DNA of 64,000 bases from Isoetes taiwanensis (lineage: Eukaryota; Streptophyta; Lycopodiopsida; Isoetales; Isoetaceae), in the NCBI GenBank assembly GCA_021234155.1, contig JAJEKV010000001.1:18867382-18931381 (forward strand). Reading direction: 5' to 3'. Both the position numbers and the translations under genes were made by a program. This document shows positions 5,145 to 59,660 of this stretch, piece by piece (positions within the stretch are counted from its first letter, which is position 1; every line of letters begins with the position of its first letter). A model generated the notes under the pieces. That model was given only the letters and a program-made list of their open reading frames with translations, was not told the DNA's origin and searched no databases.

Positions 5145-5195
5145 TTTAGTGAACCGACTGAAAAGGTTGGTTCCATTCACTCCTTATAGGGACTG
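5145..5195 (+). CDS. Exon of the split gene, 5' part, cut by the gypsy insertion
   Basis: The acceptor ttccttgtacag ends at 5144. The exon reads SLVNRLKRLVPFTPYRDC and is interrupted at 5195/5196 by the LTR element. The same codon phase continues at 18799 (CPPKPAPSIFQSDVDEF...). The join is seamless when one copy of the 5 bp duplication GACTG is kept. This shows directly that the retrotransposon landed in an exon in antisense orientation. Confidence 0.6.
5191..5195. repeat. Target-site duplication GACTG, left copy
   Basis: GACTG directly precedes TGTGACGTCCCC (left LTR start). The same five bases follow the right LTR end (GGAACGTCACA). A 5 bp duplication is usual for LTR retrotransposons. 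Confidence 0.85.
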
Positions 5196-7001
5196 TGTGA
5201 CGTCCCCTACTCGTATACGGTGCCCTCACCGTATACAAACAGGAGTTCATCCCCCATACCAGCTCCATGCTAATACAGGGCCCTCCACATGACACTGCAA
5301 CCGTGACGGGTTCCAGTGGGAAGAGTGGAAGGGTCATTGCACCCCGTCTCCCTCAGGGCCTACCTAGCTGCGGAAGCGTAAACATACATGTCAGTAGCAC
5401 ATACATCAATATCATATGACCATCACGAAGGATGGCCCTCCACATATCTGCATAGACAAGGATCAGCACATCACATAGGGAATCCTACCCAAGGCTCAGA
5501 CTCAAAGGAATGACTGACGGCTTGGGTCTCCAGAGCTCATTGCAGACAGAATTCATGGCAATGGATTTGGCTGGCACATGAACATGGCTTAGGGTTGTCC
5601 ACTCCATCCGCCCCTCCTGCGTACACTTTGCAGATAGGTTGAAGAACTTCGGGGTTGGACCGTAGGCTCACGGGATCATAGCCAAAGGGGCTATAGCCGT
5701 GTTACATCTCCCTGCACTCGATGAGGCGTGTAGGGAGGTTTCTCTCCCACCGATGATCAATGCCATAGCAGGCGCACTAGAGGACACCAACCGTCTGCAT
5801 TCGATTTTAACCCACTTGAAGGGAACTACCACCACGCGACCGGTCCGACCCTCGTGCAAGACAACCACCGCATTAATGGGGACCTCGGGCTGAAACCCCG
5901 GTGGCACCGCCGCCTGTGCACGGGCTCTTATCCCCAACGGTAAAGTCGAACTCATACTGTGGTGCACGCAGCCCCCGAGTATTAAGCTTAAATGGCAAAG
6001 TGCTCTCGGGTAGACTTTACATCCCGAGAGCAACCGCTATGGACACGCGACCACCCTTATCAACCGGTTCGACCCCTAAGAACACAACACAAAGTGGGCT
6101 ATTGCACGCAGCCGCAAGTAATCTGCAGCTAGAGAGGCTACTCTAGGAGCATCAACTACAAAGCTTTAGGTCTCTACCCCCTTCCCAATACAAGGAGTTC
6201 ACAGAGATACATCATCCATGTACATCACGGAAGAACTAAAGAACAAGATCTAATCTATATCATAGAGTTAGGTTCTTTAGTTAGAATCTGCTATCTAGAG
6301 TTCTAGAGGGCTTCTATGGGCAACTTAATAGGCTAAACCTCTTGATTCAATGACTAAAAGCAGGGGTTTAGACTATCTAATTGGCCAAATACGATCCTTG
6401 AGAGACTCCTCCCGACTGAGCTCGACCATCCCTGGAAACGCTTCGAATCTAGAGAAACTAAGGTTGCGATTCTCCCGGTCAGTTCGGGATGCGGTTTTGG
6501 CCGTTGAGGCGACCAAAGCAGAAGAGTTCGAAACCCTAAAATCGAAAATTAGGTTAGTTAGGGTTTCCAACCCTATATAGACAAGGGGTGGCTAGGGTTT
6601 CCAATTATCCCCTTTTGGCATGTGGGATAATTGGTAATGGGCCCACTTGCCTTTAAAGGGCTAGGTGGCCAAATGCCCACATGGAAATGTGTGTACCCAA
6701 ATGTGCTCACATGGAAATGTGTGCACATTAATGAATGTGTACATTGGAAAATGTGCACATTACTTGCACCTATGGGTATGGCCCACTTGGCATCAAGTGG
6801 CCACATGGAAATGTGTGCCCACATTAATGTGTACATTGGAAAATGTGCACATTAATACTAATGCACATTCTTAGCAAGTTGCCCCCTAGGGCTACCCACT
6901 TGGCTATACGTTGGCGTACCGTCAATGAGGGGTGGCGTGTGCGGCGACGCGGGCGATTACAATATACGCCCTGAGCGATATCGTGGCTTTGGAACGTCAC
7001 A
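5196..7001 (-). repeat. 3' LTR of the gypsy chromovirus
   Basis: 1806 bp, starting TGTGACGTC and ending ACGTCACA, alike along its full length to 16980-18798. The termini are complementary (TGTGACGT/ACGTCACA). It contains the palindromic TATA-like CTATATAG at 6573-6580 and a patch of short repeats at 6680-6870. A purine tract on the minus strand abuts its inner end. Many one-base differences from the other LTR point to age or sequence error. Confidence 0.9.
6675..6875. repeat. Short repeats inside the LTR (left copy)
   Basis: Units of the type ACATGGAAATGTGT and ACATTGGAAAATGTGCACATT recur several times. Both contain self-complementary cores (ACATNNAAATGT, GTGCAC). The same patch is present at 18470-18665 in the other LTR with very few differences, so it was part of the element when it inserted. 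An enhancer-like role in U3 is inference. Confidence 0.75.
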
Positions 7002-7012
7002 TTCTCCCCACC
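7002..7012 (-). other. Polypurine tract of the gypsy element
   Basis: On the minus strand GGTGGGGAGAA directly precedes the 3' LTR start TGTGACGTT. Position, strand and composition fit the primer site for plus-strand DNA synthesis. Confidence 0.75.
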
Positions 7013-7877
7013 TTGAAATGATCTTTGTCCGCGACATCGTGGTTTCCCCACCTTGGAATCTTCCTAACTTTGCAATCAACCGATGCATATGATATACTCC
7101 TATAATACTTACACATTTATTACAATTACCTCAAGGTAATATTTTTTTATGACATTATTACATCATTATATTATGAAATAACTTATCAATTCACGATATT
7201 ACTAGACAATTTACTCCAAACTTCACTTAACATTACGATTAAGTTTATCAAAATTTAAAATTAACGTTCGAGGCACTCTTCATTCCTTGCAACACATTCC
7301 AACAAAATTTGTGTTGCAAGTCTTCGTAGCTCGACCTCCTTGCCCTCCGGAGCGCTCTACTGGCCTGCAGGTCGACACTACGTTAGTACCATTTAATTAT
7401 TAATTAAAATTTTTGGTTATATGGTGACCACCCCACCTATCTACATGGATGCATGGCTAATCTCCCGGCATAGGAAGAGGGTGAATCTTCCATTATGGCC
7501 GCGGAGACAGCGCCTACATGCCTATATGCCGCTCATGCCTACACCTCTAGTTGCCCAGCGTGGAGGATATCCTTCTCGCGTGGGGGGCGCGAAGGATAGA
7601 TTCCTCCTATCAAAGCATATATGGGGCTAAAGGTGCTTTTCCTATGAATGCATTCCTCAATGACCTCCTTTCTCTCGAGGGTCGCCTACTCGCGTGGAAG
7701 CAGTAGACTTTCTAATCTACCTCCCACTTCGCCTAAAGCGCCGGAAACGCGGTCATGCCTACATTGACATTACACCACGCCCTAGAGATCACCATAGTGG
7801 TCCCATCATCGGTAACACGCATGCGACCCATACTAAGCGCAGGTGGCATGCGTAGATTAATCTTAATTATACAAGAA
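7013..7877 (-). other. 3' untranslated part of the gypsy element
   Basis: This lies between the end of the chromodomain frame and the polypurine tract. It is AT-rich near 7080-7300 and GC-richer near 7320-7850. I see no domain. It is long for a 3' UTR and may hold decayed coding sequence. Confidence 0.4.
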
Positions 7878-8420
7878 TTAACCTACACAAATCGACATGC
7901 CTGAGCCGATTTCTTCGGAGATGACCTTGCCGTCCCATTGCTCCATAAAGCGTGGGTGCTTTGCTTTTACTAAATCTTTCTTAAGTACCCACGTGGCGTC
8001 TTCCATCGGTAAGTGTTTCCACTTGACCAAATCTTGGAGGAATTCGATCTCCTCGTTTTTCTTGAAAGCTTTATCAAGAATCAATTGCGGAACTATTTCC
8101 GGTTGTTTCCTCCGCTCATTTCCAACAATGGCATAATCCAAGACGTGCGGATTTGGGGTATGCCTCTTCAAAGCAAACTCACGTGGAAGACCTTATGAAT
8201 CTTTAGGTGTGGCGGCAAGTCTAGCTTGTAGGCTTGATTGCCTAGTTTCTCGACTATTCGAAGGTCCGCCCACCTTGGAGCAAGCTTCTTGCAATTGCCG
8301 ATCCCGAAGCTTTCGCCGCTTCACCTTAATCTTGAGCCAAACATTATCTCCAACTTGAACTCTCTTCTCGTTTCGATGCTTGTCGGCGATGCTCTTTTGG
8401 CGACTTCTTGCTGCTAGCAA
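7878..8420 (-). pseudogene. Integrase C-terminal region with chromodomain
   Basis: The minus-strand frame at 7878-8171 carries a chromodomain-like block: EEIEFLQDLVKWKHLPMEDATWV followed by acidic/aromatic residues and HPRFMEQW (here split by description). The aromatic W of VKWK and the ATW of the second strand match the cage-forming positions of chromodomains. The adjoining frame 8193-8420 carries the GPY-like linker region (VGDNVWLKIKVKRRKLRD). A frameshift separates them. In chromoviruses this module binds modified histones and guides integration. That matters here because the element also encodes an H3-like protein. Confidence 0.7.
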
Positions 8421-9017
8421 ATAGCCACGAACTTCCTCTACAAGGCTGCCGCATATCGGCCAACATCTGGCTGCGAAACTTCCACTTTTTGACGGGGTTG
8501 TGCCAAAGTGTGCGAGTTAAACAGCGATAGCCGTAATTGATCATAAACGGCGACATTTGGGATGATTCCTGCTTGGTGCTATTGTATGCAAACTCCACCA
8601 AGTGAATAAATTCTTCCCACATACCTTGCTTATTCGGACATAGTTTGTGAGTAGCATGTCCTCTAAAATCCTCTGTTGGTCCGCTGCAATGCGGCCATCC
8701 GTGCGAGGATGATATGCCGTGCTCATGGATAGCTTAAAATGCGGATCGTCGCGAAAGAGGTCTTGCCAAAAGGCACTCATGAACCGGATCCACGGGTGGG
8801 AGATGATCTCCCTTGGCATGCCATGAAGCCCGAAGATCTCTTTGGTGAAGAGCTTTCTCGCTGTATCCATGGTCAGTATCGTGGTTACGCAAGGCACAAA
8901 ATGTGCCATCTTCGACAACTTGTCGACCACTACCATTAAGGCATCCTTGCCTCTCACTGTCCTTGGGAGTCCTGTGATGAAATCCATGCTGATTACCTCC
9001 CACTTAGCGTTTGGCAC
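8421..9017 (-). pseudogene. Integrase catalytic core (rve)
   Basis: The frame reads WEVISMDFITGLPRT (first Asp), then VVVDKLSKMAHFVP. The usual SDRD segment is changed to SHPWIRFMSAFWQ, so the second catalytic Asp appears lost. It then reads YHPRTDGR with an altered NQ-LE region (ADQQRILED), where the third acidic residue sits. About 158 residues are continuous, followed by a shifted frame (8344-8622) reading IHLVEFAYNSTKQESS. The order and spacing fit a gypsy integrase, but the catalytic triad is damaged. Confidence 0.8.
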
Positions 9018-9207
9018 CGCTAATGGCTCTAATGCCCCCGGAATTGCTGCTGCTTTCGCCGTGGCGGCATAGCCGACATTCCTTGATGTAGCGAGCTATT
9101 TGCTTCTTCATTCCCGGCCAATAATAGCTGCTGCGCGCACTTTGAAATATGTTTTCATGAATCGCATGGCCGGCTATTGGGCTGTTGTGCGTGTCGTGGA
9201 GGATCAA
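9004..9207 (-). pseudogene. Integrase zinc-binding domain (H2C2)
   Basis: The frame carries H-(x)-HDTHNSPIAGHAIHENIFQ, then YYWPGMKKQIARYIKECRLC, matching the HHCC domain before gypsy integrase. The last cysteine pair is CRLC. It overlaps the core frame start by a few bases because of a frame change. It normally helps bind element ends. Confidence 0.75.
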
Positions 9208-9212
9208 CTTCC

Positions 9213-9741
9213 TTACACGATGATGATTGTTTCACACAACTTGTTCTTATGGTATAACAGGTTGCCTTCCTTCTTATAATGCTTGAAGGCCTCCCCGCTC
9301 TTTATCCGTTCTAGCCTCCTTAGAAAGGCTTGCCCATACCTCCTTGAAATCCACGTCCGTTGGCAAGGACTCTTCAATCCTCTTACCAAAGTTGCTGGAG
9401 AGCGTCGAAATTGCATTGCAATGCACTCTAGTTGTCAGGGGATGCCTTGAAAGCGATCTGCTACCACATTGAGCTTCCCGGCTTGTAAGCTATATGAAAG
9501 TCATATTCCTCAAGGAACTCCATCCATCTCCATTTTGCCTCAGTTAAGGTGTGTGTTTGCGTGAATACATATTGGAGGCTCGATGGTGGGTATCCAATTG
9601 GAACTTCCTTCCCAAGAGATAATGCCTCCATATTCTTAATGCCCCGACAACCAAGCAACTCTTGATGCGTGCGTTGGGTAGCAGCGTCTCGGCGTCGTTC
9701 ATCTTCACGGAATCATATGCTACTACGCGCTCTTCTTGCAT
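9213..9741 (-). pseudogene. RNase H region
   Basis: Minus frames hold VVAYDSVKMNDAET, ALRIWRHYLLGRKFQL and, in a neighbouring frame, WRWMEFLEEYDFHIAYKPGS. These are standard landmarks of gypsy RNase H (YDSRKLN, W-x-HYL-G, W-x-E-L-x-EYDF-I-Y-PG). At least two frameshifts split the domain. In an active element it degrades the RNA of the RNA-DNA hybrid. Confidence 0.75.
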
Positions 9742-9847
9742 AAGCCGCGCCCGTAGCTATCTTACTCGCATCTGTTTGCTACCGGCTTATCTTTCTCGGG
9801 TCCGCGGGGTTAAGGCTGGGGCTATTGTTAAAGCTTCCTTCAGCAGT

Positions 9848-10532
9848 TCAAACCCCTTTTGGGCTTTCTTGTGCCAATGCTCTACCCAATCTTTCACCTT
9901 CTGCCCTCGTCGAGTGCATTAATGGGGCTGCTATCTTAGCAAAGTTCTTCACGAACTTCTGTAGTACCCTGCTAGGCGAAGAAGCTTCGACTTCATGCAC
10001 ATTCTTCGGTGACCCTTTGATAGCCGGCCTCAATCTTGGCGAGGGTGTCTGTTGAGATGCCTTGCCTGGGAGATCACATGACCTAGATACTCCACCTTTC
10101 TTTGCGAAGTGGCACCCGACAACTTGCATTATAGCCCCGGTGCCTCTTCAACTTCTCTAGCACTCTTCTCAAGTGTTGTGCGTGCTCTTCAAGGGATCCG
10201 CTATACACCAAAATGTCGCCAAAGAAAACAATCACAAAGGTGTCCAAGAACTCCCTCGAAGATATCGTTCATGAGCCTCATGAACGTTATGGGGCATTTG
10301 ATAAGCCGAAAGGCATTCGCGGAACTCATAATGCCCATACCGGCGTTCTGAAGGCGGTCTTATGGATATCTTCTTCCTTTATCCCGATCGATGATATCCC
10401 GACCTTAAGTCGATTTTGGAGAAGATCTTTTGCACCTTGGAGCTGATCCATCAAGTCGCCCGATCTTGGGAGCGCGCATTTGTTCTTAATGGTGTGCTTA
10501 TTCAACTGTCTATAGTCTATGCACATCCTCAA
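9848..10532 (-). pseudogene. Reverse transcriptase palm and fingers
   Basis: The frame at 10326-10532 gives [20 protein letters not shown] and then [13 protein letters not shown], the classical gypsy RT blocks. Near 10205-10235 another frame gives FFGDILVYS in place of F-x-DDILVYS, so one catalytic aspartate is changed. The thumb/connection follows (FVKNFAKIAAPL). The frame changes several times and the domain is inactive in this copy. Confidence 0.8.
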
Positions 10533-10652
10533 GGATCCATCCTTCTTCTTGACAAAAAGAATGGGCGCTCCAAGCGAGAGACACTAGGTCTAATGAAACC
10601 TAGGTCAAGCAGCTCCGCCGCGCTTCTTCAGCCCGACAACTCCCCGTGGTTG

Positions 10653-11270
10653 TCATTCTATATGGAGCCTTGCTTGTTGGTTTTGTTCCGTGTTCGAAAG
10701 TGCTATTTCGCTTTTCGACTCTATAAGGAGGGAGCTGCTTGATCTCATCCGAAAGAGATCATGGAACTCCGTGATTAGCTGAGATACTTGCCCGGCAACT
10801 TGCTGGGCGTTGTCTTCCTTGCTTCCTCCGATTCGGCTCACTAATCTCAAGCTTGAAGATGTATGCCACTTGCTCACTCTTGATGCACTTGGACGGCCGT
10901 TTAGAAGACATGCATCGCATGATGGGAACAACAATTTTTGTTATCTCAATGATCTTGCCGTCGGGCGTTGGAAAGGTCACCTTCCGCTTTCCCGATCGAT
11001 AATGGCCCCGGCTGGCCCAAGGTATTCCATTCCTATGATCAAGTCATACTTTCCAATGCCCATTACCTCTGCTCCCATCCGGATATTAATCCTCGGCAAG
11101 TCGATGTCGGTTAATTCTCTTTTTGCCCGTCGCTTTTACTTGCACCACTTGCTAAAATAACGGGTCTTGGCTTTGACTTTAGCGGCTTCAACTTCAACAT
11201 CCGAACCATTACGGGGATGCAAAGTTATGGCTACTTCCCGAGTCTATCAAGACTATGAATGACTTAGCTT
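10653..11270 (-). pseudogene. Aspartic protease and protease-RT linker
   Basis: At about 11221-11260 the minus strand encodes SFIVLIDSGSSHNFASP, with the D-S/T-G active-site triad of retroviral-type proteases. Downstream frames give GKVTFPTPDGK and ITEFHDLFR, typical of the protease end and the linker before RT. Stops and shifts separate these blocks. The protease would cut the Gag-Pol polyprotein. Confidence 0.7.
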
Positions 11271-11454
11271 TAGCCTTCCCCTCGTGGAAATTACCTTATC
11301 TTGGCTCTCGCTTGCTCACGTATCTATTGCGGCAAAGATATGACACTCACCCCTGAATATAGTCGCGGGCCTCTTCCGCCGCCGTCCGGGCGGGGCTTCC
11401 CAATCTCCCAACTCCGCTAGAGCTGCACTCATGGCGTAGGGGCGGTTTTTTGTT

Positions 11455-12620
11455 CTATGGCCCTACTGGAAGCACCCGGCTTCTGGCTTTTCTATGCACT
11501 CCTGCCGCCTCTTTTCCTTGGGCATCGCTTGCAAAAGGATTGCACCGCTTTGGAGTAGTTTGACTTCTCTGCTTGTCCTTAAAGGACACCTGCTTCTTTC
11601 TCCCGCCGCTTCCCCAGCGGTTCCCACCATATGGGGCTCTATTTGGACTGGGATAGGGTGCCAGGGCTATAGCTTCTGTCGCCTTGCCTTTCTCCCGGAA
11701 ATGCTGCTGCTTGTGCCCGCTATTCGAGGTCCGCCCCGCAAGCTTATAGCCTTGGATTACGCCCGATCTCGTCCTAGGGTTTATTGCTCTCACAAACTTA
11801 CGGATCTCCTCATTCAAAACCCCTCGATATAGCTTTCTCGCATGCTTGCTCTCTCCCAACCCGGCACATACTGACCTTAGCCTCATGAATTCCTCTCGTA
11901 TATTTCTGAACTGATTTGTTGCCTTGCTGTAACGGTAAAAGCTGCGCATCATCTTTGGACTTATGTTCCCTTGGGGCGTAATGGCGCTTTGAAGGCTTTA
12001 GCAAACTTTCTAAACTTACAAGCATCCCTGCTTAAGCCGTGTGCCTTTGCATACCCCTTCCACCAAATCCGGCGGCTCCTTTCAAGTTGGCTGTTGCAAC
12101 TCGCCCTTGTCCTTATCCTTCATACCATAAGCATTTCCATTATTTCGCTCATTTAGTCCAGCCATGCCTCTGCTTCCAAGCGACGCTGTTTCTCCCCGAG
12201 AGCTGTTCGATTCGGGCCTTCCATACATTGCCGGTCGGAATCTACCTTCTTACCGTAGTCGGAGGCCCTGGTATCTCTTTTGTCGTCCCTCGGGGTGTTC
12301 CTCACGCCTTCCCTCTGTTGGTTCACAGGCGCTCTTCCTCCTCCCTCAGTGGGTCACGAGTGCGAACTTGAGTCGGAAGATTCGGTTGGGGGATCTCCTT
12401 CTCTTGCTCCTCTTCCTGTCCCTTCCTTCCCTCAGGAGCTGATGCTTGCGGCATCGAGCATTGCCCACCGAACCTACTCCCTTGCCGCGGACGGTAATGC
12501 CTTTATATCTGCTCGATCCGTCCTCATCCGGGCTATCTCCTTTCTGGGGTCATGGGTTCCCTATCTTCAAATAGGTTCCTTCTTGCGGGGTGGTGCTGGG
12601 CGGGGGTTTGTTCCTCTATA
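11455..12620 (-). pseudogene. Gag of the gypsy element
   Basis: Two minus frames overlap at 11810-12025 and 11455-11952. They give LLPLQQGNKSVQKYTR joined by a frame change to IREEFMRLRSVCAGLG and LNEEIRKFVRAINP, the hallmark core of retrotransposon Gag (L-x-QG-x-SV-x-Y, EF-x-L). A basic tail with NRWGSGGRKKQVSFKDK follows. I see no CCHC knuckle, unlike many chromoviruses, though it may lie in lost sequence. Upstream to about 12620 is a Glu/Pro/Arg-rich N-terminal part. Confidence 0.65.
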
Positions 12621-12629
12621 AGGTCTCGC

Positions 12630-12915
12630 ATGGTTGTCGTTCCCCAGCAAGCTTAGCCCTCTAGCTGCATCCACAAGTGATTAATGGCTATATGGTTAGT
12701 TCCATTTGTTCTCTTGCATTGTTTATGTTTGTTGGTATAATTGTGGGGCAACATACATCAATAAAACATTTAAAGTACAAATGTAATTGTATTTATATAT
12801 CATATAATATTTTAGGTACAAAAGGTCTCAGGGATCAAGAGTCTAACTAGTCTTGAAATCGCGGGGTAAGGCGGGTTGTCTTCAAGAAACTTCTTAACTT
12901 GGGCCGTCCCTACTT
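12630..12915. other. AT-rich spacer between gag and ORF X
   Basis: This stretch is markedly AT-richer than its GC-rich neighbours (12750-12820 is nearly all A/T) and has no protein-like frame. It may be the natural leader in front of gag or an old small insertion. No terminal repeats are evident. Confidence 0.4.
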
Positions 12916-12919
12916 GTGT

Positions 12920-14365
12920 GACCCAAGTTCGATGATGCTTGCCGGCGGCGTCCCCGGATGGCTCTCACAGGTCTTCTACCCTCATTGGGTCGGATGTAAG
13001 GGCCGCGATCCACGCTAATCTCCCCGGCGTCGGGGTGGGGATGGCGGAATCAAAGAGGTCAAGTGCCATTGCCCTCTTGACTAAGACAAGCATAGTCGAC
13101 ATTTGCTGCTATTCGAGCATGCCCGGCCAAGCCCGAGAGTGCAATCAGCATAAACACTCCTTCTTAGCCTCACGGGGCTGAACTTGCGGTGGATTACGCT
13201 ATTCTCCCATCCATCAGCAGTGGTAAGTAGTAGTGCGGCGACGTCGATTATTATTAAGCGAAGTTTCTCCGCTTGTTTGGCCTCCAGCTCTGTGGCGCCC
13301 GGTACTGCTTCGTCGACCTCTACTTCAGTGAGCTCCTGTAGTCTTCAATTGTGCGGTCAAGCCTCCTAAGGTCGATTCCTTCTCCTTTTGGCAAGGGTGA
13401 TATTGGAGGACCGGCATTAGGATACTGCGGTGGTCTTCCCACGGATCCCCATCGCTCTTGGAGGGCGAGGAACTCCTCCTACGTTGGCGGCTCCCGCTCG
13501 TCCATCAATTGCCCGATCTTTAGCCAGAGGCTGGATGCCAGGAGGTCTCCCCCATGTGTAGGTGTCAGACTCCCTCACTTGGGAGCGGGAAGTCTGATGC
13601 TCCGGACGATGAAGTCGCCCGAGTCGGTCTGCCGCAGCTGGTGGAGCCTTTCGTCCCAACTCCGAAAGCTCCCTCTCCCTACATTGGGGAGGTTGGATGT
13701 CGCCGAGGAGTAGATACTCCTCCGCCGATGATGATTGGGGCTAGGCTTGTGATGCCTAGCCCAAGCGGGGAGCAACTCGTGCCCTGGCGGCTCTCGCCGA
13801 AGTTGATCAGCCACCTCTCCTTGGCCGTTCTTCGGGTCCGGAATTCGAAGCTCCGGAGTGTATCCTTCGCCGTCCGACTCTTCTTCGATCTTCTCTTGCT
13901 TCCCGTTCTTGTTGATACCGCAGCAAAGATTTGCCCTTCATTCCTTTCGTTTATGGGGTCTACCTCCATCGGAGGGATAGAGGTTGCCCCATCGGGTTCG
14001 CGGTGGGGATAAGAAGATGGCTAGAGGCGTGATAATGCGAAGTACTTGGTCTGTTGGCTGTCCGGGACCATGTAGTCGGGTAGCCTTTGCGCCTTGTTGG
14101 TCAAGTACTTGGCGATGTTGGGGACATCGCCAAGGCTGTACGAGAAGGGACGGTGGGGGAGAAGTATCCTATGCAAGGGGGACTTGGACAAGGGAGGGTC
14201 CTACCCTAGCCCGAAATTCGCTAGCACCCGCCTATATCTTTGGGGTTGCGTCAGTATTAACTTGATGTCAATTTCTTTCACAAAGACTTGGAAGATGTCA
14301 TTGACATCCGCCTTCGATGGCATGGGCACCGGCCAACACCATCGCCCGAAATCAGCAGTGGCCAT
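12920..14365 (-). pseudogene. ORF X: unrecognised extra ORF upstream of gag
   Basis: The minus strand opens with ATG at 14365 (MATADFGRWCWPVPMPSKAD, then a segment with LILTQPQRYRRVLANFGLG). After a TAG and frame changes it continues as SLGDVPNIAKYLTNKAQRLP and, at 13679-13969, MEVDPINERNEGQIF followed by a basic region. The composition is protein-like over about 1.4 kb. I do not recognise any family. Its place between the H3-like ORF and gag, behind a second pair of palindromes, suggests an accessory gene of this element. It could instead be an extended N-terminal part of gag. Confidence 0.4.
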
Positions 14366-14663
14366 TGATCTAGCAAGGAAGGGAGTATCAAACGGATGCA
14401 GAAGCGCCTCAGGGAGCTGAAAGATCGCCTAAGCAGTGGGGAGCAAATTTGCAGGGTGCCAATTGAGAAATGGGGAACTTATTTATAGAAAGGGGAAAAC
14501 CCTAATTTTTGGATGACCTAGATTTTACTGAGATTAGTTAATTCTGATCTATTAAGGGATGCAATTGCAAGTTTGAAGACTATTTCTAGAGTTTGAGCAT
14601 GCTAAGGAGAGCTACTGAACCTATTGTGCAATTTGGAGATCATTTGGTGATGACATGGTACGG

Positions 14664-14734
14664 GGTCTCATACGTTGCGCCCAGCCCGATTTCTAAAATG
14701 TAGAAATCTGTCCCGCGGCGCTGACGGTGAGATA
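14664..14734. repeat. Long palindrome, copy 1
   Basis: An imperfect inverted repeat of about 70 bp. The outer arms are GGTCTCA and TGAGAT(A), the middle arms are GCGCC-like/GGCGC-like, and the centre is GATTTCTAAAATGTAGAAATC. Three further copies lie at 14866-14933, 16521-16590 and 16708-16780, and nothing else in the window resembles them. This copy lies upstream of ORF X in the element's sense. Confidence 0.8.
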
Positions 14735-14865
14735 TGGGTCCTAATTGGGCTAGGATTACTCAATTTAGGTGATCTAAGGTCTGTAATTCTACTAAACTCA
14801 TCGAAGTTAGCGAAATTGACCCCTTACTTGGTCGATTTGGAGCTGTTTTGGGCATTTTTGGGCAT

Positions 14866-14933
14866 GGTCTCATCGCGTTGCATGGCAGATTTCTAAAATG
14901 TAGAAATCTGTCCTGGCGCGACGTGTGAGACAT
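14866..14933. repeat. Long palindrome, copy 2
   Basis: Same design as the copy at 14664, with outer arms GGTCTCA/TGTGAGAC and the same centre GATTTCTAAAATGTAGAAATC. The ACGTG beside the right arm is shared with copies 3 and 4. It lies between the stop of the H3-like ORF and ORF X. Confidence 0.8.
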
Positions 14934-15074
14934 CGTCTCAATTTTGCTCAAAACTCCAATTTAATTAAAACGAAGGCTAGGGATCGATATCTTGACCTAT
15001 TTAAACAGGTTTGGACACTTTATTTACACAAAATTTTCTTTATATTAACAAAATTTTACAGTCATTTACAAGGT

Positions 15075-16337
15075 TCAAGGGCGTTCTCCCTTGATGTGTC
15101 TGGCAAGATACATATCCTGCCTCATGAGGGTGACCCTCTTCGCGTGCACTGTGCAGGCCGTTGAATCTTCAAAATGTTTCACCAAGTGGGCTTCGGCCGC
15201 CTCTTGCAAACCAAACAACATCTAAATCACGCCACGGCGCATGTCCGTGTTGTATTCTTGGATGACTTAGCGGACGGGGGCTGAACGGGCGCCGTGGAAT
15301 CGAGTCCAGTAACTTTTCTGGAAGTGGCGGATCTCCTTGAGTGCCCTGTCTTCCTCCTGTTTCTTCTTGCTCCTCTTCTTCCCGGGTGCTCGTGGGGCCT
15401 TGGGTTTTGGTGGAGGGGGCTTTAGTGTCTGGCTCTTCGTCGGGTGCCCGCCTTCGATCGTTCTCACCCGGTGCTCCTGGTAATAGGTGTTGTAGGCCTC
15501 CCACTTCGCCATATATGCGTTGTGCTCCCTCATTCTCTTCTCATAGACCTTTAAGGGGTCTATCACGTAGGCTTCCCGCGGTAGTGGGGCCTTGACCTAT
15601 CCCACGCCGGAATGGTGGGGCTTTCGCCACCTGCCCGGCCTCCTCTCGCTCTTGGGCCGTGCTTGCGTGCACCTCTTCCTCTACAACCGGGGGCTTTGAA
15701 GAGCTCGCCCCATCTGCGCCCGCACGTAGTCTTGGTCCGAATGTCGTCGGTAGTGGCGGGTCTCTCCCCTCGGCTTGGCTCGTTGATGCCGGACCAGCCG
15801 GCTCTCTTCCCAACCTTCACCAGCTTCCTCTTGCCCGCCTTGATGGCCTTGGCCCTCCTCTTCTTAGGTCCTCCGTCTTCACGATCCTTTGATCTACGCT
15901 CCGGGGCTCTTTTGACCGTACTTTTATGGGCTGGCGGGCTAGGTCGGCCTCTTCCTCGGGGTGAGTTAGGCTGTGGCGCTCCTCTCTCCTACCTGCTCCT
16001 CCCGAGGTGGATCTCATCTGGGGTTGTTCTTGGCCTATGGGTGGGTTCACAATTCCCTCTGCTCCTCACGTGGGTTGGCGTCCCCCACGGTGTTGCTCCC
16101 TCTTTGCTGCGCTTTACGCCTCCTGCCGTTCAATTTCATTGAGGATCTCGCCATGACGCCTGGCCGTCGTCCTCCAAGATCTCTGTATGGTCGGCTCTGT
16201 CCCGCCACGATTCCTCGCTTGACGAAGATCCGCCGACGGAGAAGGCGTTCCCGAAGAATCCTATGAACAAGGCGGGCCGGGTATTGGAGGATCCGGCTCG
16301 TCACGAGGCTTCTGGCAGTCCGCTTTGTGCGGGCCAT
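15075..16337 (-). pseudogene. Histone H3/CENH3-like ORF inside the gypsy element
   Basis: At the C-terminus the minus strand encodes a full H3 fold in one frame. Helix N is ALKEIRHFQKS (15344-15312), then a degraded loop, then VIQEYNTDMRRG. Helix 2 is [18 protein letters not shown], then [20 protein letters not shown] and a final GERP before the stop at 15075-15077. Only two in-frame stops break it (TAA 15267-15269, TAG 15222-15224), each one substitution from the residue expected in H3. HFQK and TLMR-D are the forms usual in plant CENH3, where canonical H3 has KYQK and TIMPKD. At the N-terminus (16337) the frame reads MARTKRTAR, like the H3 tail. The roughly 300 residues between are charged and Pro/Lys-rich, with a shift near 15600 and others upstream. 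In a cell it could enter nucleosomes or mimic H3, which is inference. Confidence 0.8.
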
Positions 16338-16520
16338 CATTTTTCGTTCGTCGATTGGAGCTCGCGCCCGGAAGATCGCCTTTGACAATACTGGCGAAGT
16401 TCTCGTGAAGAACGAGAAAAATGGGAGGGGGGTCGGTTCTATTTATAAGGCCAATTTTAGGTCAACTTTTAAACTACCTTTTGGGTTGTCTAAGGCATCT
16501 AAAACACCTATTTAAGCAAA

Positions 16521-16590
16521 GGTCTCACCGTTCGCCCAGCCCCATTCCTAGAATCTAGAAACGCCCCTGGCGCCGACGTGTGTGAGACAT
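16521..16590. repeat. Long palindrome, copy 3
   Basis: Outer arms GGTCTCAC/GTGAGAC, inner GCGCC-type arms, and a diverged centre CCTAGAATCTAGAAACG. It has the same layout and length as the other copies and lies upstream of the H3-like ORF in the element's sense. Confidence 0.75.
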
Positions 16591-16707
16591 GGTGGGGCCC
16601 ACTATCAAATTAACATGTAACATGCTAAATCTACTAATTCTTAGCTTAAATTTAGAATTATCAAGATATTTTAATTGTAATTTACAACTTTTTTTGGTGT
16701 CAAAAGT

Positions 16708-16780
16708 CGATGTTCAGACGTTGTTTCCAGCCCGATTTCTAAAATGTAGAAATCTGTCACGGGCGGCGACGTGTGAGACC
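16708..16780. repeat. Long palindrome, copy 4
   Basis: The centre is GATTTCTAAAATGTAGAAATC as in copies 1 and 2, with right arm GACGTGTGAGACC. The left arm is eroded (GATGTTCAGACGTTG). It is the copy nearest the PBS. Confidence 0.75.
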
Positions 16781-16967
16781 ACCCTACTTTTGATGTTGGC
16801 TCATCAATTTTAGTCTTTTTACGTTTCTATTCTTTTTAATCGTTACTAGCTTTAGCATAAGCTACAAAAATGAAAAAAAATTTCTCATTTTTCGAGGTTT
16901 GAGGATCCTATCAAGTTAGTGCTACGGGAACATGGCGATTGCTTTGCTCTTGGTCTCCAAGAACATA

Positions 16968-16978
16968 GCTCGATACCA
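16968..16978 (-). other. Primer-binding site (initiator tRNA-Met type)
   Basis: On the minus strand TGGTATCGAGC starts 1 base after the 5' LTR end. It matches the initiator tRNA-Met complement TGGTATCAGAGC except for one missing A. Position and sequence define the start of minus-strand DNA synthesis and confirm that the right LTR is the 5' LTR. Confidence 0.8.
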
Positions 16979-16979
16979 C

Positions 16980-18798
16980 TGTGGACGTCCCCTACTGTGA
17001 TTATCACGGTGCCCTCACCGATACAAACAGGAGTTCATCCCCATACCAGCTCCATGCTAATACGGGGCCCTCCACATGACACCGCGAACCGCGGGGCGGG
17101 TTCCAATTGGGAAGAGTGGAAGGGTCATTGCACCCGCCTCCCTCGGGGCCTACCTAGCTGCGAAGCGTAAACATACATGTCGGTAGCACATACATCAATA
17201 TCATATGACCATCACGAAGGATGGCCCTCCACATATCTGCATAGACAAGGATCAAAGACATCACATAGGGAATCCTACCCAAGGGCTCGACTCAAAGGAA
17301 TGACCGACGCTTTGGGTCTCCGTGAGCTCATTGCGCACAAGAATTCATGGCAATGGATTTGGCTGGCACATGAACATGGCTTAGGGTTGTCCACTCCATC
17401 CGCCCCTCCTGCGTACACTTTGCGAGATAGGTTGAAGAACTTGAGGGGGTTGGACCGTAGCTTTCCCGGGGATCATAGCCAAAGGGGCTATAGCCAAAGT
17501 TACATCTCCCCTGCACCGATGAGGCGGGTAGGGAGGTTTCTCTCCCACCGGATGATCAATGCCATAGCAGGCACTAGAGGACACCAACCGTCAGGTACTT
17601 CGACTTTAACCCACTTGAAGGGAACTACCACCACGACCAGGTCCAGACCCACATTACAAAGACAACCCGCACCTGGGACCTCATTTGAAACCCCGGTGGC
17701 ACCGTTAAGCCAGCACTTCTTATCCCCAACGGTGTCGAACTCATACTCGGTGCACGCAGTCCGAAAGTATTAAGCGCCTTAGTCTGCGGTGCTCTCGGGT
17801 AGACTTTACATCCCGAGAGAGCAACCGCTATGGACACACGACCACCCTTATCAACCGGTCCCACCCCTAAGAACACAACACAAAGGGCTATTGCAGCGGG
17901 CGCAAAGTACAAGTGCTAGAGAGGCTACTCTAGGAGCATCAACTACAAAGCTTTTAGGTCTCTACCCCCTTCCCAATACAAGGAGTTCTGAGAGATACAT
18001 CATCCATGTACATCACGAGTAAGAACTAAAGAACAAGATCTAATCTATATCATAGAGTTAGGTTCTTTAGTTAGAATCGCTATCTAGAGTTCTAGAGGGC
18101 TGCTATGGGCAACTTAATAGGCTAAACCCATTGATTCAATGACTAAAGCGGGGGTTTAGACTATCTAATTGGCCAAATACCCGATCCTTGAGAGACTCCT
18201 CCCCGACTCGAGCTCGACCATCCCACACTTATTTCGAATCTAGAGAAACTAAGGTTCCGATTCTCCCAAATGAAGTTCGGGATGCGGTTTTGGCTGTTGA
18301 GGCAGCCAAAACAGAATTTCAAACCCTAAAATCCGAAAATTAGGTTAGTTAGGGTTTCCAACCCTATATAGACAAGGGGGTGGCTAGGGTTTCCAATTAT
18401 CCCCTTTTTGGCATGTGGGATAATTGGTAATGGGCCCACTTGCCTTTAAGGGCTAGGTGGCCAAATGCGCCCACATGGAAATGTGTGTACCCAAATGTGC
18501 TCACATGGAAATGTGTGCACATTAATGAATGTGTACATTGGAAAATGTGCACATTACTTGCACCTATGGGTATGGCCCACTTGGCATCAAGTGGCCACAT
18601 GGAAATGTGTGCCCACATTAATGTGTACATTGGAAAATGTGCACATTAATACTAATGCACATTCTTAGCAAGTTGCCCCCTAGGGCTACCCACTTGGCTA
18701 TACGTTGGCGTACACGTCAATCGGGGTGGCGTGGTATCGCTGGCGTGGCAAAGCATAAATATACGCCCCGGGAGCGATAATGCGGTCGGAACGTCACA
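16980..18798 (-). repeat. 5' LTR of the gypsy chromovirus
   Basis: 1819 bp, TGTGGACGTCC...GGAACGTCACA, matching 5196-7001 along its length. It carries the same short-repeat patch (18470-18665) and TATA-like site. In the element's direction it drives the transcript to the left. It ends at the 5 bp target duplication. Confidence 0.9.
18364..18371 (-). promoter_or_regulatory. TATA-like box in the 5' LTR
   Basis: CTATATAG sits in a G/C-poor setting (CTTGTCTATATAGGGTTGG on the minus strand). It is its own reverse complement, so it reads as TATA on both strands. The copy at 6573-6580 is conserved in the other LTR. The role is inferred from sequence alone. Confidence 0.4.
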
Positions 18799-18803
18799 GA
18801 CTG
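18799..18803. repeat. Target-site duplication GACTG, right copy
   Basis: GACTG directly follows the 5' LTR end (ACGTCACA) and equals 5191-5195. Confidence 0.85.
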
Positions 18804-23511: not shown

Positions 23512-25441
23512 TCTTATATTATAATGTTGTGTAATGGACCGCTGACCCAAATCGATCCGCCGAGGATTTGATTGACCAATGGTGGAGATGATGTGTGCGT
23601 GTCTTCAACTAAAATTTCATCTTGACTATGGCTTCAATATGAAAGGGAAAAGGAAAAAGGAAAAGGAAAAGGAAAAGGAAAAGGAAAAGGAAAAGGAAAA
23701 GGGAAAAGGGAAAAGGGAAAAGGGGAAGGGGAAGGGGAGGGAAAAGGAAAAACGATGAAAGGGAAAAAGGGAAAAGGGAAACGGAAAAGGGAAAAGGGAA
23801 AAGGAAAAACGATGAAAGGGAAAAGGAAAAGGAAAAAGATGAAAGGGAAAAGGGAAAACGGAAAAGGAAAACGGAAAAGGAAAAGGAAAAGGGAAAAGGA
23901 AAAGGGAAGGAAAAAGGAAAAACGATGAAAGGGAAAAGGGAAAAGGGAAACGGAAAAGGGGAAGGGAAAAGGAAAAAAGATGAAAGGGAAAAAGGAAAAG
24001 GAAAAGGAAAAGGAAAAGGGAAGGGAAAAGGAAAAACGATGAAAAGGGAAAAGGGAAAAGGGAAAAGGGAAAAGGAAAAAGGAAAAGGGGAAGGGGAAAG
24101 GAAAAATGATGAAAGGGAAAAGGGAAAAGGAAGAGGGGAAGGGAAAAGGAAAAACGATGAAAGGGAAAAGGGAAAAGGGAAAAGGAAGAGGGGAAGGGAA
24201 AAGGAAAAACGATGAAAGGGAAAAGGGAAAAGGGAAAAGGAATAAAAGAAAGGTAAGAGGAAAAAGGAAAGAGAAGGAGAAAAGGAAAATGGAAAGATAA
24301 AAGAAAATAGAAAAAGGAATAGAATAGGCGAGGGGGAAAGGGAACGGAAAAAGAGCACCGCGAGAAGGGTAAGAAGTAAAGGTGAGAAAAGGAGAAAAAG
24401 GTAAGGGAAAATAAGAAAAGGTTGCAAAGTCTATGGGAAAAAGAAAAGTAAAAAGGAAAAGAGAGGGGGAAAAGGGAAAAAGAGAACTTGGGAAAAGGGA
24501 ACGAGAAAAAGAGAAAAAAGGAAAGGGCGTGAAAAAAAGGGAAAAGAGAAAGGGTGAAGAAAGAGAAAAAGGAAAGCAAAAAGAGCATCGAGAAAAAGGA
24601 AGAGGGAAAGGATGGAAAAAAATGAGGAAAAAGATGGGGGAAAGTAGAATAGACAAAGGGTAGGGAGCAAGGAATAGGAAAAGAGGAAAAGAGGAAGGAG
24701 AAAAGGGCACGAGAAAAAAGGGAAGAGGGAAAGGGTGAGGAAATGGAAAAAAGAAAGGAAAAAAGAGTATGGGAAAAGGGAAAAAAAAAAAAAGAAACAA
24801 GAAAGGAGAAAGTGGAAAGGGGAAAAAGGGGAAGAGGATGGGGAAAGAAGGAAAAAGGGTACATAAAAAAGGTTGAGAAAAGGGAATGGAAAGAGGCATA
24901 TGAAAAGCTTAAAGGGAAATGTGAAAGGGAAAATGTAAAGGAAGGGAAAGAGAAAGGAAAGGGAAAAGGGAACATCGCGAAAGCAAAAGGGTGGGGAAAG
25001 TATGAAAAGGAATGGAAAGTTGAAAGGAAAAGGGAAGCTTAAAAAGGAGAAGGGAAAGCAAAAGAGCATGAGGAAAAGAGGAGAGAGAAATGGGAAAAGA
25101 GATGGGGGAAAAGGGCACGTGATCAAGAGGAAGAGGGTGGGGAAAGGAAGAAAAGGGCACATGAAAAGTTAAAGAGAACGAAAAAAATGCATGAGAAACG
25201 GGAAAGAGAAAAGGAAAAGGAAAAGGAAGAGGAAGGGGAAAAGGAAAGGGAAAGAGAGTAGTGGAAAAATGGGAAGAGCGGGGAAAGATAAAAAGGAAGG
25301 GAAAAAGCTGATAAGAAAAAGAGAAAGAAAAAAAGGGGAAGGGGAAGGGAGAAGGGGGTTAGAAAAAAAAAAGGGAGAATAAAAAAAGAAAGAAATTAAA
25401 GGTTCCTAATTTATGCCCAGCAAGGCTGGGTACCATTACTA
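23512..25441 (+). mobile_element. Helitron A (non-autonomous, polypurine cargo)
   Basis: The 5' end A|TCTTATATTATAATGTTG is followed by a conserved subterminal block (GTAATGGACC... CCGCCGAGGATTTGA). The 3' end has hairpin GCCCAGCAAGGCTGGG at 25415-25430 and then TACCATTACTA, where CTAG is cut short by the next element. It shares both ends with the Helitrons at 25442, 38369, 40593, 40893 and 50919. Between the ends there is almost only purine-rich repeat. No Rep or helicase is present, so it needs proteins from elsewhere. Confidence 0.75.
23638..25390 (+). repeat. Polypurine array in Helitron A
   Basis: About 1.75 kb in which the plus strand is nearly all A and G. The left part (to about 24240) is built of GGGAAAAGGAAAA-like units with a recurring AAAACGATGAAAGGGAAAAGG at uneven intervals. 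The right part has units with GGGCACGAGAAAAAAGGGAA and AAAGGGTGGGGAA. Long open frames on both strands (for example 449 residues of F/S/P on the minus strand) come from the biased composition and are not genes. Confidence 0.95.
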
Positions 25442-27063
25442 TAATATAGGATGTTATACCATAAGTGCGTAGTGCATCGAGCCCTAATTTGAATGGCCGA
25501 GATCATCTGGATGCATTCGAAGGCCTAGATTTATTGCATGACTTACCAACACTGTGATTGGTCATGCGTCGATCTCTTAAGGGGAAAGGGTAAATGAAAA
25601 GGGGGAAAAGGAAAAGGGAAGTGGAAAGAGAGAATGTGAAGGGCAAAAAGGCATGGGGAAAAGGGAAAAGGGTAAAAGGAAAAGGGAAAAAAGAAAAAAG
25701 GGAAAAGAAAAGGAAAAAGAGAAAGGGTGGGGAAAAGAAAAAAGCATGGGGAAAAGGAAAAAGGCAAAAAGGAAAAGGGAAAAAAAAAAGGGAAAAAAGG
25801 AAAAGGGAAAAAAAAAGGAAAAGGGAAGTGGAAAGAGAGAATGTGAAGGGCAAGGCATGGGGAAAAGGGAAAAGGGTAAAAGGAAAAAAGAAAAAAAAAA
25901 AAAAAAAAAGGGAAAGGAAAAGGGAAAAGAAAAGGGAAAAAGGAAAAATGAAGTGGAAAGAGAGACCGTGGAAGGGCAAAAAGGCATGGGGAAAAGGGAA
26001 AGGGTAAAAGGAAAAGGGAAAAAGGAAAAAAGAGAAAAGAAAAGGAAAAAGAGAAAGGGTGGTGAAAGGAAAAAAACATGTGGAAAAGGGAAAAGGGTAA
26101 AAGGCATGGGTAAAAGGAAAAAGGGAAAAAAGAAAAGGTAAAAAAGAAAAAAGGGGAAAAAAGAAAAAGGGAAAAGAAAAGGGAAAAAAGGAAAAGGGAA
26201 GTGGAAAGAGAGAATGTGAAGGGCAAAAAGGCATGGGGAAAAGGGAAAAGGGTAAAAAAAAAGGCAAAAAAAAAAAAAAAGAGGGAAAGGAAAAGGGAAA
26301 AAAGGAAAAGAAAAGGGAAGTGGAAAGAGAGAGTGTGAAGGGCAAAAAGGCATGGGGAAAAGGGAAAAGGGTGGGAAAAAGGGCATGGGAAAAGGGAAAT
26401 AGAAAAGAAAAAAGAATGGAAAAGGGGGGAAAGAGAGAGAGGCACGGGGAAAAGGAAATGAGGAAAATGGAAAAGGGGAAGAGACAAAGGGAACATGGAA
26501 AAGGGAAAGAGGGAAAGGGTGAGGAGATGGAAAAGGGATGGTACGGAAGGGAGAAAAGAAAAATGAAAGGGAAAAGGTTACACAGAAAAAAGAGGAAAAG
26601 AGTGGGAAAAGGAGGAAAAGAGAAGGGAAAATAGGCGAGGAAAAGAGAAGGGAAAATAGGCATGAAAAAGGGCGAAAGAGAAAAAGGTTAAGAAAAAGGG
26701 AGGACATGGAAAAAGGGTGGGGAAAAGAGAAGGCATAAAAAAAAAAGAGAAAGGGGAAGGGAAAAGGGCAAAAGAAAAAAAAAGAGAAGAGGGAAAAAGG
26801 TGGAGAAAGGAGCAAAAAGGAAAGGGAAAAAAGATTATCGAACAGGGAAGGGGAAGGAAAGGGATGGGAAAACAAGGAAACATGTGAGAAAGACAAAAAA
26901 AAAAAAAAAAAAAGAAAAGAAAAAAAAAAAAGTAGAGAAAATAAGAAAACTGAAATGCGGGGATAGAGCAAAAGGAAAGGGAAAGGGATAGGGCTTTTCT
27001 CATCGCATCCCAAAGCATTTACAGTTCTCAACTTATGCCAGCAACGCTGGGCACCATTACTAG
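25442..27063 (+). mobile_element. Helitron B, head-to-tail behind Helitron A
   Basis: It opens with TAATATAGGATGTTATACC and the conserved subterminal pattern (GTGCATCGAGCCCTAATTTG, GGCCGAGATCAT). The usual TC start is missing at the junction. It ends with hairpin CCAGCAACGCTGG and ACCATTACTAG at 27060-27063, followed by T as expected for insertion between A and T. The interior is a second polypurine array. Confidence 0.7.
25575..26995 (+). repeat. Polypurine array in Helitron B
   Basis: Purines on the plus strand again. A higher-order unit GTGGAAAGAGAGAATGTGAAG followed by GGCAAAAAGGCATGGGG recurs near 25620, 25828, 25951, 26202 and 26318, that is, every 115-250 bp. This unit is absent from Helitron A, so the two arrays grew separately. 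No gene is present. Confidence 0.95.
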
Positions 27064-31805: not shown

Positions 31806-32866
31806 TATATTTCTTTAAAATCTTGTAAGGACCACTGTATCTTGGGGAGAGCTTTGGTTTCTTTCCTGCAAGCAATGGCAATATTGCTTTTCTTTTCAGA
31901 TTTGCAGGGAAGACCACATGAAGGTACACCATCTGACCCTCATGCAGCTCGATCGGGGCTCTCGACAAATTGGCACGTGCCCTTGCCTGATCCTGGCCCT
32001 GTCTGATTTGCAATTGACACAACCCAAGTCACATCCATGCCTTCAAGCATACTTATAGCAGCATCAGTTTTCAGCCCTTCAAAACCAAGTGATACAGGTC
32101 CTCTGGGATTTCTCCCAAACATAGCCACAAACGGGCTAGTCTTGATGCTCTGTTGGAACCCATTATTGTAAGCAAACTCTACAATTGGCAAATAGTCCTC
32201 CCATCTGGATTGCTGAGTGGCCACATAAGATCTCAGCATATCCTCCAGAATCTGATTCACTCTTTCAGTTTGCCCATCCGTTTCCGGATGATCTCCACTA
32301 GAGAACTGAAGAGTGCATTTTAATGCAAAGAACAATTCACGCCGAAAATTCCCAGTGAATTTCACATCTCGATCGCTTACAATAGCCTTGGGTAATCCAA
32401 AAATAGGAAATACATGCTGCATATAAGCCTTGGCCACCGCCAAGCCACCAGCATTCTTTGTCAGAGGTATAAAGCGTGCATACTTCGTCAACCTATCAAC
32501 AATGATAAGTATCTGGGTATAGTGATGCACAGTACGAGGCAACTTCACAATGAAATCCATAGAGATTTCACTCCATCGTTCCTCTGGCACAGGCAGAGGT
32601 TGCAATAGCCCTGGAGTCTTGCCTCGACTCGCTTTAACCTGCTGACAAGTCTCACAGACTTTCACATATTCCTGCACATCCTCTTTCAAGCTAGGCCAAT
32701 AAAACATTCTTTTGAGCGATTCATATGTTTTCCATTCACCCCCATGCCCATAGGGTGCATCATGAAATTCGCTCAATACCTGCTTTCTCAAAGTGTCCAC
32801 AGCAGGAACATAAATACGTCCCTTATGATACCAGAGTCCATTCTGGATATCCCAAGCATATTTCAT
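31806..32866 (-). CDS. Integrase of the second gypsy element
   Basis: The frame 31940-32866 holds the zinc-binding part (FHDAPYGHGGEWKTYESLKR, FYWPSLKEDVQEYVKVCETC). The catalytic core has Asp residues in EISMDFIVKLPRT and AIVSDRDVKFTGNF and the Glu in QTERVNQILEDMLR. The triad is present. After a frame change near 31960 the linker (GQMVYLHVVF, KPKLSPRYSGPYKILKKYSD) follows. It joins element DNA into the genome. One or two frameshifts make this copy inactive. Confidence 0.85.
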
Positions 32867-32907
32867 ATTGAACCATCACATTTACTTCCCGAACCCTAGA
32901 AAGAGCA

Positions 32908-33174
32908 TCAGCAACAGGATTCTTTTTCCTGGGAAGGATGTTCAACATGAAAATGAAGTTGAGAAAGAATGTCCAACCATCTTGCTTGCCTTGGACTTAC
33001 CTCGGCCTGGCTTTGCAGGAATTTTAAGGGCTTATGATCAGTATAGACCACAAATTCACATTTGTTGCGGAGATAATGTTTCCATTTGAGCGCATGAACC
33101 ATGGCCAGTAACTCCTGCTCATAGGTGGAATAGTTCTTTTCAGCAGCATTGAGTTGGCGACTTTCATACGCCAC
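32908..33174 (-). CDS. RNase H of the second gypsy element
   Basis: Reads MAYESRQLNAAEKNYSTYEQ, ELLAMVHALKWKHYLRN, VYTDHKPLKFL and WLDILSQLHFHVEH, the full set of gypsy RNase H landmarks including the acidic E and D positions. It is separated from RT by a stop at about 33180. Confidence 0.85.
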   Translation of the reverse strand: MAYESRQLNAAEKNYSTYEQELLAMVHALKWKHYLRNKCEFVVYTDHKPLKFLQSQAEVSPRQARWLDILSQLHFHVEHPSQEKESCC

Positions 33175-33186
33175 TACTCTACCATC

Positions 33187-33885: not shown

Positions 33886-34255
33886 ATTGAATAGAAGGTA
33901 AATGAGGTTCTAGAACTACGGAGGTAGTTAGTTAGTTAGTTTGTCTTTTTCCTTGTGCTTTGCTATTTAGCATTTTTCACGCTTTCATGCTCTTTATCAG
34001 CTCCTCATTTAGCATCTCCTTTCTAGTGTTCGGTCCCATTTCCTTACTTCTATCTATTGTTTCCACGCCCTATTCATTTTGTCACTCCGGCAAAATTTCA
34101 AGGCATTATTGCTTGCCCAGTTTACTGACGAGTTTATTTGCCTTTTGTTATACTTAGGGTCTTCACGGTAGAAGCAAGGCGGTGATGGCTTCCCTTGTTA
34201 CTTCATTGGACCTTTGATGCCTCCGAACTTTTGTGCGGAAGGCTAAGAAAAGCTC
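33886..34255. other. Unassigned stretch between gypsy truncation and copia LTR
   Basis: T-rich on plus, no coding signal. It may be older flanking sequence or an extension of the copia LTR if the LTR start at 34256 is wrong. Confidence 0.35.
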
Positions 34256-59480: not shown

Positions 59481-59660
59481 AAAGATTCCTTGAAACTCGA
59501 ACATTCCAAAAAAATTCTTAATGTTTGATCGTGTTGGCTCCAACTGCGACAAAATAGTGTCAAAGCACCACTCATTGGAAAGCTCTCGACGAGAGGAATC
59601 CATTGGTGTGGGCCCCACCTTAGCCAAGGACAACACAGGTAACCTCGAGTGTTACCTCGA

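Follow-up and report, generated by a model that had tools for sequence, protein, structure and literature searches.

The minus strand of the window, by which we mean the whole 64,000-nucleotide stretch of the Isoetes taiwanensis genome analyzed here, carries a full-length LTR retrotransposon of 13.6 kb at positions 5196 to 18798; all features of the element described below lie on that strand. Its LTR pair, boundaries and flanks were read directly from the sequence. The two LTRs, each about 1.8 kb, are 90.5% identical (5′ LTR, 16980 to 18798; 3′ LTR, 5196 to 7001) and a 5-bp target duplication, GACTG, borders the element on either side (5191 to 5195 and 18799 to 18803). The primer binding site (PBS), TGGTATCGAGCTA (16966 to 16978), resembles the initiator-tRNA-Met consensus, and a polypurine tract read as AAGGTGGGGAGAA (7002 to 7014) adjoins the 3′ LTR. 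The gag-pol region (protease, RT, RNase H and integrase; 7881 to 12620, start approximate) is broken in the window, with RT, RNase H and integrase motifs, in frames read by eye, following the order PR-RT-RH-IN. Pfam searches with the pol pieces matched Integrase_H2C2 (E 1.8e-15) and RVT_1 (E 0.0017, below its cut-off), and the integrase C terminus carries a chromodomain at 7932 to 8087 (PF00385, E 1.3e-6, 28.7 bits against a cut-off of 25.1, residues 36 to 87 of the piece). By its LTRs and target duplication, its pol order and its integrase chromodomain, the element is a chromovirus.

It shares with other chromoviruses (Ty3/Gypsy elements with an integrase chromodomain) the LTR, PBS, gag, RT, integrase, chromodomain, polypurine tract and 5-bp duplication. 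Unlike them, it adds two sense ORFs with TATA-like boxes between the PBS and gag, one of which encodes a histone; no chromovirus with such extra ORFs was found in the literature searched. The PBS-gag interval consists of two units, each with palindromic repeats and a TATA-like box upstream of the ORF. ORF1, the histone H3-like gene (15075 to 16337), is a separate ORF, unfused to gag, and is preceded by two palindromic repeats of about 65 to 75 nt (16521 to 16778) and by the TATA-like box TATAAATA (16440 to 16447), some 110 nt upstream of the histone ATG. ORF2 (MATADFG..., about 500 codons; 12847 to 14365, end approximate) is broken in the window and is preceded by two further palindromic repeats related to the first pair (14668 to 14931) and by a second box of the same sequence (14480 to 14487). 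The two upstream regions are themselves related, at about 65% over 279 aligned positions. Among the 40 scored copies of the histone unit described below, window included, the box lies upstream of the histone gene in 37 and after the fold in 39. The palindromes have a stem around TTTCTA...TAGAAA, and two to three core palindromes are present in 37 of the 40 copies. Common boxes and palindromes are expected from shared descent and so do not prove that these regions are promoters. ORF2 is conserved among copies and runs for 507 codons in one uninterrupted copy; it matched nothing in Pfam and had a single PDB match at E 1.8, and scans of IMG/VR with ORF1 and ORF2 returned no relative.

Several other features lie in the window. 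Another Ty3 element, its RT and integrase pieces open, occupies 31940 to 33909 on the minus strand, and the plus strand carries a piece of Ty1/copia gag-pol in which a frame of 666 codons stays open (36400 to 38400), an RVT_2 piece (46704 to 47411) and a pentatricopeptide-repeat coding sequence (53017 to 53670; Pfam PPR_2, E 5e-23). Kilobase-long polypyrimidine/polypurine arrays at 23609 to 26690 and 38470 to 40540, the latter adjoining copia-type coding sequence, are 73% mutually complementary over 100 nt. Direct repeats at 58876 to 59489, several at 31-nt spacing, are minisatellite-like. At gathering thresholds, no Rfam family was matched in the window.

ORF1 encodes a histone H3 fold

An earlier note on this DNA, made from the sequence alone, had placed a complete H3 core in one frame between the PBS and gag, broken only by a TAA and a TAG. 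The location is correct, and the gene is in the same sense orientation as gag-pol. The translation of 15345 to 15075 is indeed an H3 core, ending in GERP and a stop and interrupted by one TAA and one TAG, and the histone assignment of the block is significant with profile and structure searches alike (Pfam PF00125, E 1.4e-13; PDB H3 chains, E about 8e-20). A frameshift-aware alignment scored 200, where the best of 60 shuffles reached 46, with identity at 55 of 129 aligned positions. The same alignment corrects the claim of a single frame: about a dozen residues past ALKEIRHFQKS match H3 better in another frame. The coding block is also far longer than the note had it, with a MARTK start at 16337 in the same phase as the H3 core and 420 codons to the stop. 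As assembled in the window, ORF1 is broken, its tail by stops and changes of frame.

The complete protein can be read from two copies elsewhere in the genome, in which ORF1 is uninterrupted. In both, the protein opens with the H3 start ARTKQTARK and closes with the H3 fold; the roughly 320-residue linker between them is unrelated to the H3 tail and contains acidic as well as basic stretches. The uninterrupted fold matches Pfam at E 7e-27 and PDB H3 chains at E 4e-29, gap-free over the fold; judged from its sequence, the predicted H3 fold is complete. It is identical to canonical H3 at 51 of 90 positions, and H3 residues 110, 113, 115 to 118, 120, 123, 126 and 128 are retained, several of which form the H3-H3′ interface. 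Unlike the H3 and plant CENH3 rows compared, the fold has no RPGT-type stretch ahead of helix N, so a nucleosome containing ORF1 would differ at the DNA entry. The element's chromodomain retains one of the three aromatic cage positions in the register that we assumed for it, which leaves self-reading of methylated K9 unsupported.

LTR differences in the window copy cluster at CpG sites

The stops in the window copy were considered as simple decay, a reading rejected because the LTR differences concentrate at CpGs and include indels and transversions. Between the two LTRs, 36% of CpG columns differ, the rate falling to 2.6% (20 of 783) for columns lying over 8 nt from a CpG, and none of 2,000 circular shifts gave clustering as strong. 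The pair differs by 79 transitions and 98 transversions, plus gaps, with a raw K2P distance of 0.107. The histone unit has a weaker pattern between copies (22% differing on CpG versus 6% far away). According to the accessible text of the genome paper (PMC8566536), version 1 of the I. taiwanensis assembly (1658.30 Mb) is based on nanopore R9.4.1 reads, with racon and pilon used for polishing. Given the clustering of LTR differences at CpGs in a nanopore assembly, basecall or polishing error at methylated CpGs likely lies behind many of the breaks, a view drawn from the assembled sequence. Such error would make the raw LTR distance overstate the age of the element.

The histone gene is a regular part of a multicopy family

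The genome (1,658,258,908 bases in 1110 contigs) was searched with a 501-base histone query, which gave 40 scored matches, window included, from 1857 first-look candidates. These are 88 to 100% identical, and 38 of the 40 span the full 501 bases. We retrieved the unit from the 39 copies outside the window. An uninterrupted 427-codon ORF1, from MARTKQTARK to GERP, is present in two of them, and the last 164 codons are open in eight. In 16 of the 39 (the eight open copies and eight others) 10 kb onward was read, and all 16 have the same arrangement: histone, second promoter unit, ORF2, spacer, gag, PR-RT, RNase H, integrase, chromodomain and LTR, one copy having about 1.3 kb extra ahead of the spacer. 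The possibility that the block is a lone pseudogene in one copy is rejected, since other copies carry it. Histone ORF1 is a regular part of a multicopy chromovirus family.

An exact histone 24-mer occurs at 103 places genome-wide and a degenerate codon pattern for KHFEDSTA at 252, with no match for the reversed controls of either, whereas an integrase 24-mer occurs at 1128 places. Among 40 scored pol matches, window included, at least 25 have a histone match about 6.6 to 7.2 kb upstream, one of these lying about 2 kb further off; among the first 100 listed integrase places, at least 12 have a histone match at such a distance (one at 5.4 kb). These pairings were read from coordinates, with the first 100 places listed for each histone pattern. 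Four of the other 88 integrase places comprised two with a diverged or damaged histone, one with only the adjoining promoter unit and one with nothing. Part of the gap between integrase and histone counts is thus divergence, since two of these four pattern-less sites hold a diverged or damaged histone. Histone-less relatives of the element may exist; every copy found with the histone query carries the block, although some distant relatives on the integrase side may lack it.

Some histone matches lie 11.4 to 14.6 kb apart on the same strand, as at C1056:24550781 and 24562551 and at C601:436030, 447609 and 459040, with similar same-strand spacing on C35, C907, C1034, C501 and C910. This spacing is near the element length minus one LTR, which suggests tandem elements with common LTRs.

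The fold is under strong purifying selection

We compared one reference copy with 38 others over ungapped in-frame blocks. Over the fold, pN/pS is 0.033 (2127 codons, with no stops in the compared blocks), and the differences number 27, 15 and 277 at codon positions 1, 2 and 3; frame-shifted controls gave pN/pS of 3.4 and 2.0. In the same comparison the linker part scored 0.198 and the tail 0.292. A count of the same kind for the other element genes, one copy against 15 others, gave 0.203 for ORF2, 0.395 for gag, 0.161 for PR-RT, 0.220 for RNase H, 0.130 for integrase and 0.182 for the integrase C terminus with the chromodomain. Among the eight copies with open last 164 codons (28 pairs), the value for the fold is 0.031, with zero second-position differences. 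Picking open or ungapped stretches drops damaged sequence and cannot alone produce a third-position bias; the copy pairs are nonindependent, so no p-value is given. The fold is under strong purifying selection, the tightest of the stretches measured, and its near constancy between copies suggests that the element uses the histone.

This bears directly on whether the gene is a passenger, that is, a captured host gene useless to the element or a retropseudogene confined to one copy. LTR retrotransposons often carry captured host genes, according to the accessible parts of two sources (PMC13317346, PMC7264820), and the window copy is broken. A passenger should show pN/pS near 1, however, whereas the fold is constrained more tightly than RT or integrase, and the gene occupies the same place in all 16 copies read. 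A passenger without use is rejected on the fold constraint, and we consider passenger status in any form highly improbable. Conversely, we regard it as practically certain that this is an H3-type gene, present across the family, under purifying selection on its fold, in gag-pol orientation and with a TATA-like box upstream.

The fold is not firmly a CENH3

The earlier note went further and proposed that the element had captured a CENH3-like gene and might use it to enter or mimic centromeric nucleosomes. The first part stands, on firmer ground than the note had claimed, insofar as an H3-type gene is a regular, selected component of the family; the CENH3 identity and the service at centromeres find no support. 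Like plant CENH3, the fold has HFQK, LLIP and TLMR-D. It differs from plant CENH3 in its canonical loop-1 length (rice CENH3 has one additional residue and Arabidopsis CENH3 two), the missing RPGT before helix N, the ARTKQTARK start and its ungrouped position in the tree. Identity of the fold with canonical H3 is 57%, as against 61% with the CENH3 of rice and 53% with that of Arabidopsis, and the closest protein rows are a mixture of H3 and CENH3. TLMRQD is also found in protein rows P0050 and P0054, which group by themselves in the tree. The protein alignment search scored 8000 candidates; most of the 17 inspected among the best 120 are tandem H3 fusions or angiosperm CENH3. A search for proteins of long length gave nothing among 121 candidates, a result that is not evidence of absence, as the search missed a known 275-residue H3 protein.

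In the larger tree, the element sits on a long branch whose placement is not firm, and in the smaller tree its neighbors are rows P0005 and P0010, at moderate support values of 87/74 and 87/90. Neither groups it with CENH3; a single clade with angiosperm CENH3, in a tree without lycophyte CENH3, was neither found nor rejected (p-AU 0.37). A search with rice CENH3 (150 scored of 8071 candidates) did not single out the host CENH3 among many long open H3-like frames.

Chromosomal positions were examined for 50 of the 103 exact histone matches, on 20 scaffolds of known length. The mean within-scaffold distance is 0.287, versus 0.333 for a uniform spread, with 0.117 of simulations as low; pooled positions depart slightly from uniform (KS p 0.096), and the 12 positions on one scaffold give p 0.43. 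The copies are spread along scaffolds and not clearly clustered, which is a weak argument against centromere targeting and against the concentration in centromeres that marks CRM-like centromeric retrotransposons. Thus, motif resemblance and the tolerated joint clade speak for a captured host CENH3 that enters or targets centromeric nucleosomes; the H3-length loop 1, the lack of tree support, the mixed closest rows and the spread of copies speak against it, and we consider it unlikely.

The rice CENH3 search also turned up a second H3 set in the genome, with dozens of open frames longer than 400 codons among the 150 scored. Two members, at C1061:1000189-1000530 and C985:18281028-18281345 (frames of 451 and 459 codons), show 85% and 82% fold identity to H3; against the element fold the values are 58% and 54%. 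A search with the first yielded 40 scored matches from 1485 candidates, at 92 to 100% identity and counting the query itself. To judge by these sequences, this is a second multicopy set of near-canonical H3 folds, apparently recently amplified. A single clade of this set with the element fold is rejected (p-AU 0.009, with caution over long branches).

DISCUSSION

We propose, with a probability of about 0.6, that the element encodes an H3 variant that enters host nucleosomes and alters chromatin to the element's benefit; expression, entry and benefit are what we infer. ORF1 would be expressed apart from gag-pol as an H3 variant of about 427 residues, its ARTKQTARK N terminus joined to a complete H3 fold by the linker of some 320 residues. 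Its product would pair with host H4 and then enter host nucleosomes, a step that we judge reasonably probable in itself and that is favored because, among all stretches measured, constraint is strongest on the fold, the part touching H4 and DNA. The altered chromatin might weaken silencing or mark sites preferred by the integrase, and we make no firm choice between the two. The ARTKQTARK start could recruit K4 or K9 enzymes, and a loop in which the element reads its own mark is speculative.

Two other uses of the histone would keep it out of host nucleosomes. Instead of entering host chromatin, it might package the element's RNA or cDNA, in the particle or as unintegrated DNA, in the style of giant viruses, whose histones package viral genomes (as described in the available part of PMC8015243); the conserved fold and the basic stretches would suit such a role. 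We think it improbable: ORF1 is separate from gag, the H3 tail start is retained, and no other core histone matched in the element pieces scanned, so packaging would still need host H4. Slightly less likely still, ORF1 might act as a decoy or dominant negative that blocks a host chromatin pathway without forming nucleosomes, for instance one that runs through an H3 chaperone or methyltransferase binding the ARTKQTARK tail. Both uninterrupted copies pair an almost perfect H3 tail start with a long foreign linker, as a decoy of this kind might, yet it is the fold and not the tail that is most constrained (0.033 versus 0.292). A broader version of the nucleosome-entry reading is tentative, and we would not bet on it: the lineage may make its own nucleosome component, a long-tailed H3 in host chromatin serving as anti-silencing agent or integrase guide, and repeats may have acquired H3 more than once in this genome.

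As far as the accessible parts of the sources go, the nearest parallel is a Gypsy family of orchids that has retained an additional enzyme ORF, one resembling an m6A demethylase (PMC9289625; PMC7264820). Plant LTR retrotransposons with additional ORFs are alike in keeping a host-like extra gene over many rounds of replication; the present element differs in that its gene is a core histone and lies upstream of gag. No retrotransposon-encoded core histone was found in the literature searched, which leaves out most subscription papers and bioRxiv. The word "histone" occurs zero times in the review of additional ORFs (PMC7264820) and is absent from the Isoetes genome paper (PMC8566536), and "retrotranspos" occurs zero times in the main text of a viral histone review (PMC9145170). 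In the available part of the latter, bracovirus H4 and other single viral histones resemble ORF1 in that a mobile or viral genome supplies one core-histone-like protein whose tail is extended. As an analogy of function only, the element shares with them the trait of a single core histone encoded by a mobile genome. In contrast to bracovirus H4, ORF1 is an H3, belongs to a retrotransposon and not a polydnavirus, and has the linker of about 320 residues.

The Selaginella elements Tcn1, Galahad, Diluvium and Cranky are likewise lycophyte Gypsy elements with a chromodomain; the accessible text on them mentions no histone ORF, whereas the present element has one (PMC3350952). According to the same text, the interacting factor of plant group-II retroelement chromodomains had not been found (PMC3350952). 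The co-encoded histone is a candidate for the chromodomain-interacting factor of elements of this kind.

The case also suggests how assembly errors linked to methylation could give living element genes the look of dead ones. Mobile elements read host chromatin through chromodomains, and one that brings a histone of its own could write chromatin and not only read it. If its product does enter nucleosomes, ORF1 would be a natural long-tailed H3 variant selected for a parasite's benefit, and it would offer a direct test of how H3 variants affect silencing and integration.
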